Assembly (NCBI GenBank): GCA_017651225.1
Contig: JAGCDF010000057.1
Span: 1-34,962, forward strand
Reading direction: 5' to 3'
Source of the DNA: Bacteroidales bacterium
GTDB lineage: Bacteria > Bacteroidota > Bacteroidia > Bacteroidales > UBA932
Length of the DNA stretch: 34,962 nt
In this document: positions 30,166 through 33,719 of the stretch, in pieces
Layout of the letters: the number at the start of each line of letters is the position of its first letter
Position numbering within the stretch: the stretch's first letter is position 1
Translations under genes and position numbers: made by a program
Notes under the pieces: model-generated
The model's input: only the letters and a program-made list of their open reading frames with translations
The model's database searches: none
Told to the model about the DNA's origin: nothing

Positions 30166-30750
30166 TTGCCCAAGCTGTATATCATATCAGGCTGCAACGG
30201 ATCCGGCAAGACCACGGCGTCGTACACGCTCTTGCCGGATCTGTTGAATTGCCGGGAGTTCGTGAATTCGGACGAGTTCGCGAAGAGTTTCTCGCCCTTT
30301 GACCCGGGCGCGGCGTCCGTCACGGCCAGCCGCTACATGTTGATGAAGATCAACTACCTGCTGGACCGGAAGGCGGATTTCGCCATAGAAACGACGCTCG
30401 CGACCCGCTCGCTGCTGCAGATTGTGCGGCAGGCGCAGCAACTGGGCTACGAGACCACGGTCCTGTATTTCTGGCTGAATTCGCCGGATCTCGCCATCGA
30501 GCGGGTGCGGGACCGGGTGGTTTCCGGCGGCCACAACATCCCCGACGCCGTGATCCGGCGCCGCTACGTGATGGGCCTGCAGTATCTCTTCGACGTGTAC
30601 ATCCCGGTCATCGACCGCTGGATCCTGGCGGACAATTCCAAGCCGCCGTTTTCGGTCGTGGCTGAAGGGTCGAAGGATGTGATATACATCAAGGACAACG
30701 AGAGATATCAACTAATTCAGCGTATTGCGCATCCCGATGAATCAGTGTGA
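30166..30750 (+). CDS. Zeta-toxin-like P-loop kinase, no partner antitoxin
   Basis: The 194-residue protein from a TTG start has Walker A 'SGCNGSGKTT' (Gly9-Thr17), 'FVNSDEFAKSF' and 'FAIETTLATRSLL', matching zeta-toxin/UDP-N-acetylglucosamine-kinase-like proteins. 'SPDLAIERVRDRVVSGGHNIPDAVIRRRY' is typical of the subgroup seen widely in Bacteroidota. No epsilon-like antitoxin is nearby; the gene sits 3 bases after pepD and its end overlaps tldD by 14 bases. A housekeeping kinase role is therefore as likely as a toxin. The TTG is the only start that keeps the P-loop strand. Confidence 0.8.
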   Translation: MPKLYIISGCNGSGKTTASYTLLPDLLNCREFVNSDEFAKSFSPFDPGAASVTASRYMLMKINYLLDRKADFAIETTLATRSLLQIVRQAQQLGYETTVLYFWLNSPDLAIERVRDRVVSGGHNIPDAVIRRRYVMGLQYLFDVYIPVIDRWILADNSKPPFSVVAEGSKDVIYIKDNERYQLIQRIAHPDESV

Positions 30751-32251
30751 CCGTTTTGGTGTGAGCGAAGAGCAGTTGCGCGCGCTTGTGGCCGAGGGGC
30801 TGCGGGCGGGTGGCGACTGGTGTGATCTCTATTTCGAGGACACGTCCTATCACGACCTGCTCCTCCGCGACGGGGTCGTCGGCTCCGGCGGCTACCACGT
30901 CGACTACGGCTGCGGCATCCGCGTCCTGAAGGGCGAAAAAACGGGCTACGCTTACGCCGAAACCACCGACTTCCCTTCCCTTAGAAATGCTGCTATAGCA
31001 GCCGGATCCATTGCAGCAACCGCCGGCGAAGCGGAAACGGCAGTTGGGTCTGAAAACCGTAGCCGCCCTCGGCTCCGTAAGAGGGAGGGGCCCGTTTGCG
31101 CCAGCAAGGGGAGGGGTCCTGCGCAGCAGGACGTTTTCAGACCCAAGCTGCCGTGGAGCGGAGCGGCGGTTGATACATATTACCAGGAACTGAAAGCTTG
31201 GGAGGATGCTGAGACAGCGGGATTTATTCCGTTTCTGAAGCGGATTGAGGCGGGGATCCGGGCGCGGGACAGCCGCGTCCTGAAGGTTGTCGCCATCCTG
31301 TCGTACTCCGTCAGCGACATCCTGATGTTCAACTCCCTCGGCGAGCTGACCACGGACCACCGCCCGCTGGGCAGCATCTCCGTCCAGGTCATCTTCCAGC
31401 AAGGCAAGCGCACCGAAAACAACACCGTCTCGCGCAGCCTGCGCATGGGCGCCGAATTCATCAGCGACGCCGTGCTCGAAGATCTCGTCGCCCGCGCCGT
31501 CGAAGGCATGGACGCCCGCTTCGAGGCGCGCCGGCCCAAAGGCGGGCAGATGCCCGTCGTGATGGGCGCCGGCGCCTCCGGCATCCTGCTCCACGAAGCC
31601 ATGGGCCACGCCTTCGAGGCGGACTTCAACCGCAAGGGGCAGTCCATCTTCAGCGACCGCATGGGGCAGCGCATCTGCCGTCCGGGCATCAACATCCTGG
31701 ACGACGCCACGGTGCCCGCCAGCCGCGGCGCCTGCAACTATGACGACGAGGGCGTGCCTGGCCAGAAGACCTACATGGTCACGGACGGCGTCCTGACTTC
31801 CTACCTCCACGACCGCATCAGCGCGGGCTTCTACGGCGTCGCCCCGACGGGCAACGGCCGGCGGGAGTCGTTCCGCTACAACCCCATTCCGCGCATGCGG
31901 GCGACCTACATGGAGAGCGGTCCCGACGGGACGAAGGAGGACCTGATCGCGTCCGTGAAACGGGGCATCTACGTGGACCAGTTCGCGAACGGGCAGGTCA
32001 AGATCGGCGAAGGGGATTTCACCTTCTTCGTCAAGAGCGGCTTCCTCATCGAGGGCGGCCGGCTGACGATGCCTGTCAAGGACATCAACATCATCGGCAA
32101 CGGGCCGCAGGCCCTGGCCGACATCCAGGCGGTCGCGGGCGATCTGCGGATTGACGAGGGCACCTGGACCTGCGGGAAGGAGCAGAGCGTCGCAGTGTCC
32201 TGCGGCATTCCTTCCGTATTGATTGGAAATTTAACGGTCGGAGGAGAGTAA
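30737..32251 (+). CDS. tldD: TldD-like zinc metalloprotease subunit, with an in-frame structured insertion
   Basis: TldD forms a protease with TldE that degrades or matures peptides. The 504-residue product has the conserved metal site 'HEAMGH' (His286, Glu287, His291) and a possible Cys ligand (Cys479 in 'TWTCGK'), and the 'VKDINIIGNGPQAL' region. Residues about 94-146 are foreign to the family: Arg/Pro/Gly-rich ('PRLRKREGPVCASKG') and encoded by a structured repeat (31017-31172). Normal family sequence resumes at 'YYQELKAWEDAETAGF'. The insertion lies in the linker between the N-terminal domain and the protease part, which probably tolerates it. The start is the ATG at 30737, overlapping the preceding gene by 14 bases. 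Confidence 0.92.
   Translation: MNQCDRFGVSEEQLRALVAEGLRAGGDWCDLYFEDTSYHDLLLRDGVVGSGGYHVDYGCGIRVLKGEKTGYAYAETTDFPSLRNAAIAAGSIAATAGEAETAVGSENRSRPRLRKREGPVCASKGRGPAQQDVFRPKLPWSGAAVDTYYQELKAWEDAETAGFIPFLKRIEAGIRARDSRVLKVVAILSYSVSDILMFNSLGELTTDHRPLGSISVQVIFQQGKRTENNTVSRSLRMGAEFISDAVLEDLVARAVEGMDARFEARRPKGGQMPVVMGAGASGILLHEAMGHAFEADFNRKGQSIFSDRMGQRICRPGINILDDATVPASRGACNYDDEGVPGQKTYMVTDGVLTSYLHDRISAGFYGVAPTGNGRRESFRYNPIPRMRATYMESGPDGTKEDLIASVKRGIYVDQFANGQVKIGEGDFTFFVKSGFLIEGGRLTMPVKDINIIGNGPQALADIQAVAGDLRIDEGTWTCGKEQSVAVSCGIPSVLIGNLTVGGE
31017..31172 (+). repeat. Structured repeat, copy A, in frame inside tldD
   Basis: Helix P1: CAACCGCCG (31017-31025) with CGGCGGTTG (31164-31172). P2: CGGCAG (31038-31043) with CTGCCG (31148-31153). 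One extra G (31147). P3: TTGGGTCTGAAAAC (31044-31057) with GTTTTCAGACCCAA (31133-31146). Inside are a hairpin AGCCG-CCCT-CGGCT (31061-31074), a G-rich linker, and a hairpin GTCCTGC-GCA-GCAGGAC (31116-31132). The 156 bases equal 52 codons and keep the reading frame. A second copy is inverted in the next gene; the cores (31060-31132) match at 68 of 73 bases. Confidence 0.9.
32240..32246 (+). promoter_or_regulatory. Ribosome binding site of tldE inside the end of tldD
   Basis: GGAGGAG lies 6 bases before the tldE ATG (32253) and within the last codons of tldD. It supports coupled or at least co-transcribed expression of the two subunits. Confidence 0.6.
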
Positions 32252-32252
32252 G

Positions 32253-33719
32253 ATGATCACAGATAAGGAGTTGAACTTCGTCCGGAAAGCACTTGACATG
32301 GCCGTGCGCGCCGGCGCCCAGCACGCCCGCGCGACGCTGTCGCTCAGCGAGGAGGACCTCGTGGCGACGCTCGACGGCGAGGTCGACCGCGTGACGCACT
32401 GCGCCGACCGCTCGCTGTCGCTGGCCCTCTTCGTCGACGGCCGCTACGGCAGCTATTCGACCAACAAACTCGACGCGGCCTCGCTCGAGGGCTTCATCGC
32501 CCGTGCCGTGGCCGCCACCCGCATGGTCGCACCGGACCCGCTCCGCGTGCTCCCCGACCCCGCCCGCTGCTGCCAGGACGCCCTCACCGGCAACGAGCTC
32601 GGTCTCGTCGACCCCGCCCGCGAAAAGGTTACGCCGGCTGACCGGCAGAACACCGCCCTATCCGCCTCTGTTTTGGCTTCGCTTCACGGCAGCCAGCCTC
32701 GCCAGACGTCCGGCTGCGCCGGACCCCTCCCCTTGCTTGCGCAAACGGGCCCCTCCCTCTTACAAAGCCGAGGGCGGCTATGGTCTGGCGAGGCTGCTGC
32801 CGATTCCGCTACGCCAACAGAGGCGAAGTATGAGATTATTTCTGAGGAGGGAGAGTATTCTGACAGTGTGTACGACACGGTGGTGATGGATACGAACGGG
32901 GTGTGTTGCAGACACAGCGAGACATCGTTCGATTACGGGGTGGAGATTACGATTGAGAGTGATGGGGAGAAGTACAGTGGATACTGGTGGGACGCGTCCT
33001 CGCGCCTCGCGGAGCTGGATGCCCCGGCGTGCGGCCGCCAGGCCCTCGCGCGCGCCGTCGGCCAGATCGGCTCCGAGCCCGCTCCCAGCGGCCGCTACAC
33101 CGCCGTCATCGACGCGGAGATGGCCTCCAAGCTCGTCTCCCCGATCCTCCGCGCCCTGAGCGGCTATGCCATCCAGCAGAACAACTCCTTCCTGATGGAC
33201 AGCCTCGGGCGGCAGCTCTTCCCCGAAGGGCTCAGCATCATGGACCTGCCCCGCATCCCCGGGCAGACCTGCTCCAAATACTTTGACTCCGAAGGCGTTG
33301 CGACCGTCGAAGCGCCCATCGTCGAGGCCGGCGTCGTGAAGCAGTACTTCATCAACAGCTACATGGCCGGCAAGCTGCAGATGGCCCCGACCGTCGAAGA
33401 CGCCACGCGCCCCAAGGTCCTCCCCTGGCCCGTCGCCGGTCTGGACCGCGACGCCATCCTGCGCCGCTGCGGCAGCGGCATCCTGGTCACCGATTTCAAC
33501 GGCGGCAACAGCAACCCCGTGACCGGTGACTTCTCCTACGGCATCGAAGGCTACTGGTTCGAGGACGGCAAAATCGTCCGGCCCGTGAGCGGCATGCTGA
33601 TGACCGGCAACTTCCTTACGCTGTGGTCGCGCCTGCTCGCCGCCGGCGACGACGCGCGCCCCTGCCAGACCAAACTCATCCCCACCCTCGCCTTCGCGGA
33701 GGTCGATTTCAGCGGATAA
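32253..33719 (+). CDS. tldE: TldE (PmbA)-like protease partner subunit, with the same repeat inserted in inverse orientation
   Basis: The 488-residue product belongs to the TldD/PmbA family but lacks the HExxxH site, as TldE does. Family segments include 'LSEEDLVATLDGEVDRVTH', 'CCRHSETSFDYGVEITIE', 'GEKYSGYWWDASSRL', 'QNNSFLMDSLGRQLFPEGLSI', 'FINSYMAGKLQMAPT' and 'NGGNSNPVTGDFSYGIEGYW'. Residues about 138-191 ('CAGPLPLLAQTGPSLL' and neighbours) do not look like the family and come from repeat copy B (32663-32825). Normal sequence resumes at 'EGEYSDSVYDTVVMD'. It starts 1 base after the tldD stop with a good ribosome site, so both subunits are made from one mRNA. Confidence 0.92.
   Translation: MITDKELNFVRKALDMAVRAGAQHARATLSLSEEDLVATLDGEVDRVTHCADRSLSLALFVDGRYGSYSTNKLDAASLEGFIARAVAATRMVAPDPLRVLPDPARCCQDALTGNELGLVDPAREKVTPADRQNTALSASVLASLHGSQPRQTSGCAGPLPLLAQTGPSLLQSRGRLWSGEAAADSATPTEAKYEIISEEGEYSDSVYDTVVMDTNGVCCRHSETSFDYGVEITIESDGEKYSGYWWDASSRLAELDAPACGRQALARAVGQIGSEPAPSGRYTAVIDAEMASKLVSPILRALSGYAIQQNNSFLMDSLGRQLFPEGLSIMDLPRIPGQTCSKYFDSEGVATVEAPIVEAGVVKQYFINSYMAGKLQMAPTVEDATRPKVLPWPVAGLDRDAILRRCGSGILVTDFNGGNSNPVTGDFSYGIEGYWFEDGKIVRPVSGMLMTGNFLTLWSRLLAAGDDARPCQTKLIPTLAFAEVDFSG
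32663..32825 (-). repeat. Structured repeat, copy B, in frame inside tldE, inverted relative to copy A
   Basis: P1: CGCCTCTG-TT-TTGGC (32663-32677) pairs with GCCAACAGAGGCG (32813-32825), with a 2-base bulge. P2: CGGCAG (32687-32692) with CTGCCG (32797-32802). One extra base at 32693, equivalent to the extra G of copy A. P3: CAGCCTCGCCAGAC (32694-32707) with GTCTGGCGAGGCTG (32783-32796). Hairpins GTCCGGC-TGC-GCCGGAC (32708-32724) and AGCCG-AGGG-CGGCT (32766-32779) lie inside. The P2-to-P2 length is 116 bases, exactly as in copy A. Confidence 0.9.

Follow-up and report, generated by a model that had tools for sequence, protein, structure and literature searches.

The question raised by the window, as the whole stretch of 34,962 nucleotides analysed here will be called (positions 1 to 34,962 of contig JAGCDF010000057.1, assembly GCA_017651225.1, from a Bacteroidales bacterium), is what keeps two related palindromes paired while their sequences differ. 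A first-pass annotation had noticed two copies of a repeat whose helices are changed and still complementary, and had offered two explanations, selection on a folded RNA or single stranded DNA and, as the mutational alternative, correction of one arm templated by the other. The copies, termed A and B, lie in adjacent genes, and their parts are the following.

30725-32251, + strand: tldD, a TldD-type metallopeptidase gene which hosts copy A in frame (Pfam PF01523, PF19290, PF19289)
31017-31024, + strand: copy A, outermost stem, 5' side CAACCGCC, just beyond the element motif
31026-31164, + strand: element copy A, 139 nt, 81% identity to copy B over 140 nt
31038-31043, + strand: copy A, helix P1, outer part, 5' side CGGCAG
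31044-31057, + strand: copy A, helix P1, 14-bp variable arm, 5' side
31061-31064, + strand: copy A, putative pseudoknot helix S1, 5' side AGCC
31066-31070, + strand: copy A, putative pseudoknot helix S2, 5' side CCCTC
31071-31074, + strand: copy A, helix S1, 3' side GGCT
31075-31080, + strand: copy A, conserved loop L3, CCGTAA (consensus TCGTRA)
31081-31085, + strand: copy A, helix S2, 3' side GAGGG
31091-31111, + strand: copy A, variable hairpin P3
31117-31131, + strand: copy A, variable hairpin P4 with a GCA triloop
31133-31146, + strand: copy A, helix P1, 14-bp variable arm, 3' side
31147, + strand: copy A, bulged G in helix P1
31148-31153, + strand: copy A, helix P1, outer part, 3' side CTGCCG
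31165-31172, + strand: copy A, outermost stem, 3' side GGCGGTTG, complementary to 31017-31024
32253-33719, + strand: pmbA (tldE), which hosts copy B in frame (Pfam PF01523, PF19290, PF19289)
32676-32814, - strand: element copy B, 139 nt, antisense to its host gene pmbA
32693, - strand: copy B, bulged G
32694-32707, - strand: copy B, P1 arm, 3' side
32709-32723, - strand: copy B, hairpin P4
32755-32779, - strand: copy B, putative pseudoknot core (S1 32776-32779/32766-32769; S2 32770-32774/32755-32759)
32783-32796, - strand: copy B, P1 arm, 5' side

Base by base, and at every position, the pairing described in the first-pass annotation was confirmed. The helix which it called P3 is the inner helix P1 of the present numbering; all 14 pairs are Watson-Crick in both copies and eight of the 14 differ between them. 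Its P1, the outermost stem, reads CAACCGCC/GGCGGTTG in copy A and CGCCTCTGTT/AACAGAGGCG in copy B, which differ yet pair. In the 3' hairpin the pair T31120-A31128 of copy A (TCCTGCGCAGCAGGA) has become G-C in copy B (TCCGGCGCAGCCGGA), the one-base bulge is kept as a G at 31147 and 32693, and the loop motifs are found in both copies alike. A covariance model built from 39 copies recognised copy A at 31036-31155 with E=3.7e-22, this copy being among the 39 source sequences, and copy B with E=2.0e-21. Folding z-scores were -5.2 for copy A and -5.8 for copy B, with none of 200 shuffles as good in either case. The pairing extends to a whole family, and beyond the annotation we found five further copies in the same genome, a candidate pseudoknot, and copies in the opposite orientation in related genomes.

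The hosts are conserved genes. The tldD product matches TldD of PDB entry 5nj5 with E=6.9e-87 and finds matches in 112 of 121 genomes of the genus; in the scanned protein copy A is located after domain 1, which ends at residue 92, and before the central domain, which starts at 155. In PmbA domain 1 ends at residue 88 and the match to the central domain runs from residue 190 (profile position 31). According to a Pfam scan all seven copies of this genome are situated within open frames of conserved genes, namely tldD, pmbA, a radical SAM protein which we take to be HemW-like, a pseudouridine synthase, a THUMP-like methyltransferase, polA, and a second radical SAM protein, presumably YgiQ-like, the families themselves being assigned by Pfam. 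The inserts in TldD, PmbA, and PolA fall between Pfam domain matches. As judged from the reading frames, a copy in a gene would add a predicted extra peptide, placed where a permissive loop or a linker between domains tolerates it.

Of the 158 copies collected from many loci, 120 are surrounded by an open frame of 200 or more amino acids. The share among random windows taken from those loci is 86%, and insertion thus shows no particular preference for genes. The gene strand was inferred by a codon-usage score; when tried on 58 pieces of the genes used to train it, this score picked the right frame for only 51. It was substituted for the rule of taking the longest frame, which is wrong for copy A as the antisense frame there is two codons longer. 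The score assigns a confident gene frame to 89 copies, of which 42 are sense and 47 antisense; a further 31 copies are unclear, and 38 are without a long frame. Five of the six frames of the element are free of stop codons, and all five are used by copies; the sixth was used by none of 111 copies, which carries no weight as evidence, since by construction the core holds a stop there.

Both blastn and the covariance model yielded seven copies in the genome of the window. Harvesting loci by a core pattern gave 158 copies, of which 152 could be parsed and 150 were distinct, alignable rows, after removal of two duplicates and of six unparsable copies (L056, L057, L065, L075, L098, L149), some of which have a broken or replaced 5' arm. 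Copy B is absent from this harvest because its loop, TTGTAA, misses the search pattern. In public genomes the core pattern occurred in at least 118 stretches, all labelled Bacteroidales, Bacteroidia, Rikenellaceae or Cryptobacteroides. With the covariance model the element was found in 33 of 37 genomes of the genus and in none of 24 genomes from other families; five weaker matches occurred in G087, a genome of another family. Four close relatives have 25-33 copies each. A class-wide search, in which 12 candidates were scored per genome, gave one genome of 295 at E<=1e-6, the window's own. Within what was searched, nearly all occurrences of the element belong to one genus of gut Bacteroidales. 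Distant blastn with one copy found no element in phage and plasmid collections, and one exact pattern found none in viral contigs.

Within the window no Rfam family matched at its gathering score. The closest candidate, RF02987 (GA-cis), was rejected, as it scored 25.4 bits against a cut-off of 34.7 (E=0.0022), left the conserved core unused, and was not repeated in nine other loci, where the Rfam scan gave two sub-threshold miRNA matches only.

Some of the copies are young. In genome G105 (L308-L318) there are 11 similar copies, ten of them nearly identical throughout, which represent a recent multiplication with arms inherited nearly unchanged, save for one copy with a replaced 5' arm. This burst sits in a larger, apparently intergenic composite repeat with inverted ends. 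The composite repeat ends in GCCTGCGAGCAGCATTCCGG, and its inverse CCGGAATGCTGCTCGCAGGC or a near match is seen upstream in some copies.

That the element is inserted into its hosts follows from empty orthologous sites in relatives, which are found for ygiQ in G136 and G030, for rluA in G015, for hemW in G147, G008, G015, and G036, and for the methyltransferase gene in G136, G015, and G030. The anchors on both sides are spaced by 9-51 nt in the empty relatives and by 129-150 nt in the genome of the window, and at the clear empty sites neither arm is present. The methyltransferase site of G136 is ambiguous, as the empty site resembles the arm of G147. This resemblance would suit an origin of the arms from the target, each insertion copying flanking host sequence as an inverted repeat, as would the stems which reach into host codons, seen in hemW of three species (CCCCCG/CGGGGG, CCTCCA/TGGAGG, and CCTCCG/CGGAGG) and in the outermost stem of copy A. 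However, the arms of unrelated copies follow one consensus, they are absent from the clear empty sites, and the G105 burst inherited its arms. Copying from the host was therefore rejected as the main route, and we consider it improbable as an explanation of the arms.

What happens to the arms once a copy is resident can be read from orthologous sites. At the tldD site the genome of the window has one orientation and five close relatives have the other. Among sites with confident gene frames both orientations occur at 11 of 17 (12 of 21 with the longest-frame rule). Arm identity is 0.60 for opposite-orientation orthologues (47 pairs), 0.63 for same-orientation orthologues (50 pairs), and 0.54 for non-orthologous copies (3643 pairs), pairs with more than 97% flank identity having been excluded from the orthologue comparisons (one in the codon-usage set). 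The value for opposite orientations was matched by nine of 5000 resamplings. Going from the longest-frame rule to the codon-usage score left the conclusions at the same sign, with opposite-orientation likeness changing from 0.66 to 0.60 and non-orthologous likeness from 0.50 to 0.54. At rluA two copies with 93% flank identity have opposite orientation and nearly identical arms. The likeness of the arms is modest, and in 12 of the 47 opposite-orientation pairs fewer than half of the 22 nt of the arm agree, so that some of the flips may have arisen by separate insertion at permissive sites. Most of the named genomes carry the label of a metagenome assembly, so any single flip could also be an assembly error.

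Arm changes at these sites come predominantly in pairs. Among the P1 positions of 42 same-orientation pairs there were 137 paired changes, 21 one-sided changes which still pair, 44 with a mismatch, and 386 unchanged; in 45 opposite-orientation pairs there were 196 paired, 25 one-sided, 47 non-standard, and 362 unchanged positions. Within each set the pairs are not independent of each other. With longest-frame assignment paired arm changes also exceed one-sided ones. Template switching between inverted repeats is described in the accessible part of PMC8604942 as making arms alike and inverting the spacer, in coding DNA as well, and in that of PMC8794818 as a route of stem creation and repair. 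In these sources it is a mutational process and not an element, whereas here it would act on a mobile family.

A further reading is a new class of invertible single-strand mobile element, in which the folded + strand with its conserved pseudoknot is the substrate and in-place inversion of the core repeatedly swaps the in-frame peptide. This we regard as possible and hold only tentatively. If true, inversion would give related bacteria alternative forms of housekeeping proteins, with an in-frame peptide exchanged for an unrelated one.

The inner part of the element behaves differently from its arms. That the helices pair was a claim which more copies might have contradicted, and it stood, the 14-bp arm of P1 having a median of one mismatch in 14 positions among 150 distinct copies. 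Inside P1 the core has the consensus xGCC ... CCCNN GGCx' TCGTRA NNGGG. Here CCCNN pairs with NNGGG as helix S2 in every one of the 150 copies, and the two variable pairs of this helix occur in five combinations. The variable pair x-x' of S1 is formed in 146 of 150 (T-A 78, A-T 49, G-C 19), the other four being mispaired. Loop L3 is TCGTAA in 117 of the 150, TCGTGA in 16, and CCGTAA in 11; the loops CGT and TCGTRA are conserved while the arms drift. By sequence S1 and S2 interleave as in an H-type pseudoknot, or they may form two mutually exclusive hairpins. Two small hairpins usually follow, and in the 39-copy alignment 85.2% of the cells of P3 are paired, with changes on both sides in five of seven pairs, as are 87.4% of those of P4. 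The side of the bulge, as read from the sequences, switches with the orientation of the element in relatives.

In the same 39-copy alignment the proposed structure pairs in 94.2% of cells, as compared to 74.2% when shuffled and 39-50% when slid by one to three columns. Covariation was then tested against a phylogenetic null with our own re-implementation in the style of R-scape, in which changes assigned by Fitch parsimony on a FastTree tree are re-dealt along the same branches and scored by a G-test with average-product correction. With 150 rows ten pairs reached E<0.05 and all ten belong to the structure (nine in P1, and S1), which was repeated with another seed; S1 gave E=1.7e-5, and the two S2 pairs were above the threshold with E=0.06 and 0.39. 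In a redundancy-reduced set of 42 rows below 80% identity all 13 significant pairs were in the structure, among them S1 at E=2e-6 and the two variable pairs of S2 at E=0.0015 and E=0.047. The two interleaved helices expected of an H-type pseudoknot hence each covary in the 42-row set, and only S1 is below 0.05 in the 150 rows. The register of P1 in the alignment was chosen by best match, a choice of which S1 and S2 are independent. When the register was fixed by P4 instead (61 copies), 94% of cells paired, and only two pairs were significant, both in P1, with S1 at E=0.064.

These data bear on a purely mutational origin, according to which the fold is not selected, the arms are made and maintained by template switching alone, and the core is conserved for no other reason than the youth of the copies. 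The arms do change in pairs and orientations do differ at the same sites, outcomes which the accessible parts of PMC8604942 and PMC8794818 describe, and a middle segment of 42 nt is identical in 13 copies, so youth explains part of the conservation. But the interleaved S1 and, in the reduced set, both variable S2 pairs covary, S2 shows its five combinations without a mispaired copy, and the core loops stay constant beside drifting arms. We therefore consider this origin unlikely. Being only 4-5 bp long and interleaved, S1 and S2 are too short and too entangled for arm templating, which makes selection on the core probable. Of the two explanations offered by the first-pass annotation both appear to act, selection on the core and correction on the outer arms: for the outer arms the excess of paired over one-sided changes and the sites with both orientations favour templated correction, a process which would hardly keep the core paired, and the covariation of S1 and S2 favours selection there, though the data do not support a folded host mRNA as its object.

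The near-equal numbers of sense and antisense copies and the bias of wobble pairs speak against the host mRNA as the folded molecule, and the fold does not seem to be determined by the transcript of the host gene. G-U exceeds A-C by 14:4 in sense copies and by 23:8 in antisense copies, the same sign in both, with little bias (12:6) in the unclear ones and none (21:23) in copies without a long frame. The fourth pair of P3 is G-U in 44 of 84 copies read and A-C in none. As G-U exceeds A-C in both gene orientations and at this pair of P3, the relevant strand is probably the + strand of the element, with the ratio in copies without a long frame counting against it. A regulatory RNA in the host mRNA, whose fold acts on translation or stability of the carrier gene, would accord with the strong predicted RNA fold and with the 1-nt loop across the 5-bp helix S2, a loop length which suits RNA geometry in H-type pseudoknots. 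Besides the two strands behaving alike, the host genes are functionally unrelated and the sites are empty in close relatives, and such a role appears very improbable.

Whether DNA or RNA is folded receives mixed indications. GNA triloops, a stable DNA-hairpin motif, make up 149 of 267 hairpin loops predicted for the part with the small hairpins, nearly all closed by C-G, as against 18 of 1054 in shuffled segments, which would favour DNA, whereas the 1-nt loop across S2 would favour RNA.

The closest known route for moving folded single strands is that of REP sequences. According to the accessible part of PMC3733652, REP repeats (GTAG, CGTC) are small and folded, some lie in genes, and RAYT transposases have been proposed as their mobilisers. 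Movement of the present element as a REP-type element by a Y1 (RAYT-like) transposase would agree with the GNA triloops and with Y1-type genes, mostly frames of about 280-410 amino acids, in 45 of 60 relatives. Presence of the element by blastn correlates with Y1 (36/3/9/12, p=5e-5), but the covariance model found the element in eight genomes of the genus which blastn had missed, and the correlation thereby weakened to p=0.057 (25/7/1/3). None of 19 Y1-type loci examined, of 30 fetched, has a copy nearby, as REP copies flanking a Y1 gene would, and no mobilising gene beside a copy was seen in these loci. With the cut-off at 23 bits, the three Y1 proteins that were scanned reach 20-26 bits. The GTAG foot is likewise not general, CGTAG occurring in only 49 of 150 copies and the rest having mostly CGTGG or CGTGC, and REP repeats are 20-40 bp long and mostly extragenic, in contrast to an element of about 140 nt with a putative pseudoknot and mostly in genes. 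We consider this route doubtful. The Y1-type proteins of about 300 amino acids (L248, L260, and others) fall into several subfamilies, one to few per genome, with weak matches to PF01797.

The reading which we prefer, with a probability of about 0.6, is a non-autonomous mobile palindromic element whose folded + strand is probably recognised for spreading and whose arms are afterwards repaired by template switching. An element of about 135-140 nt would insert into genes and intergenic DNA, by means of some mobilising enzyme. Within a gene it would stay translatable, five of six frames having no stop, and thereby survive as an extra peptide. Its + strand would fold to the long stem P1 around an H-type pseudoknot, or two exclusive hairpins, with usually two small hairpins in addition. 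This folded single strand would probably be the form recognised for spreading, which would explain the covarying core. At the replication fork, template switching would let each resident arm be repaired from the other, leading to paired arm changes, to extension of the stem into flanking host codons, and occasionally to inversion of the core in place rather than by re-insertion. Observed are the structure with its covariation, the spread in many copies, the empty sites, the hosts in frame, and both orientations at the same sites, whereas the single-stranded substrate, template switching as the cause, and inversion in place are inferred.

Palindromes inside protein coding genes are best known from Rickettsia, and we know of no mobiliser of the Rickettsia palindromic elements (RPE). 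In the accessible part of PMC2229807, where Rickettsia is likewise the best-known case, RPE are strong palindromes of 105-146 bp which lie in frame in genes of conserved proteins as well as between genes. The present element is alike in size, palindromy, and in-frame position, a likeness drawn from the description: it is 139 nt long, occurs at many loci, and is in frame in conserved genes and absent in relatives. It belongs to another phylum, and a covarying core with a putative pseudoknot, both orientations at orthologous sites, and arms which change together are seen here. Nematomorph mitochondria also have inverted repeats inside translated genes (PMC6649704), but in the accessible part of that source the arms encode conserved protein regions, as opposed to a repeat inserted in variable loops. 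No description of this family was found among the literature matches listed, in a search which left subscription journals mostly outside. The family is real and of a known kind, that of protein coding palindromes, and new in several respects.

What the family offers is a set of many copies in many species of gut bacteria, with orthologous sites which are filled, empty, or oppositely turned. With these, old questions become testable, such as which form moves, how a palindrome is kept almost perfect in a translated gene, and what is due to mutation or to selection. It can also be asked how much of the compensatory change in RNA-like helices comes from template switching and how much from selection. 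The family provides its own control, with arms which templating can fix set against an interleaved pseudoknot which it cannot easily fix. It is at the same time a warning that covariation in a long stem alone does not prove a functional RNA.

Some minor observations concern single loci. In tldD of G015 (L160) the element is absent, and a short GC-rich stretch in its place may be a remnant. The TldD loop in L162 and L164 (G160, G045) has a different small palindrome, GCCTTCCCT...AGGGAAGGC, present as a variant in L164, with both arms changed. Head-to-head pairs of elements less than 100 bases apart, resembling REP doublets, were seen at G105:C29:49889-50170, G136:C1:251881-252191, and G058:C20:4420-4687 and 52563-52859. 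In L057, L065, and L149 a similar unrelated hairpin stands in place of the 5' arm, as though a further palindrome had inserted itself. Other palindromes are nested in the loop of P3 in L115 near 7283 (+), L145 near 6019 (-), and L097 near 7823 (-); those of L115 and L145 are alike and may represent a second small element family.
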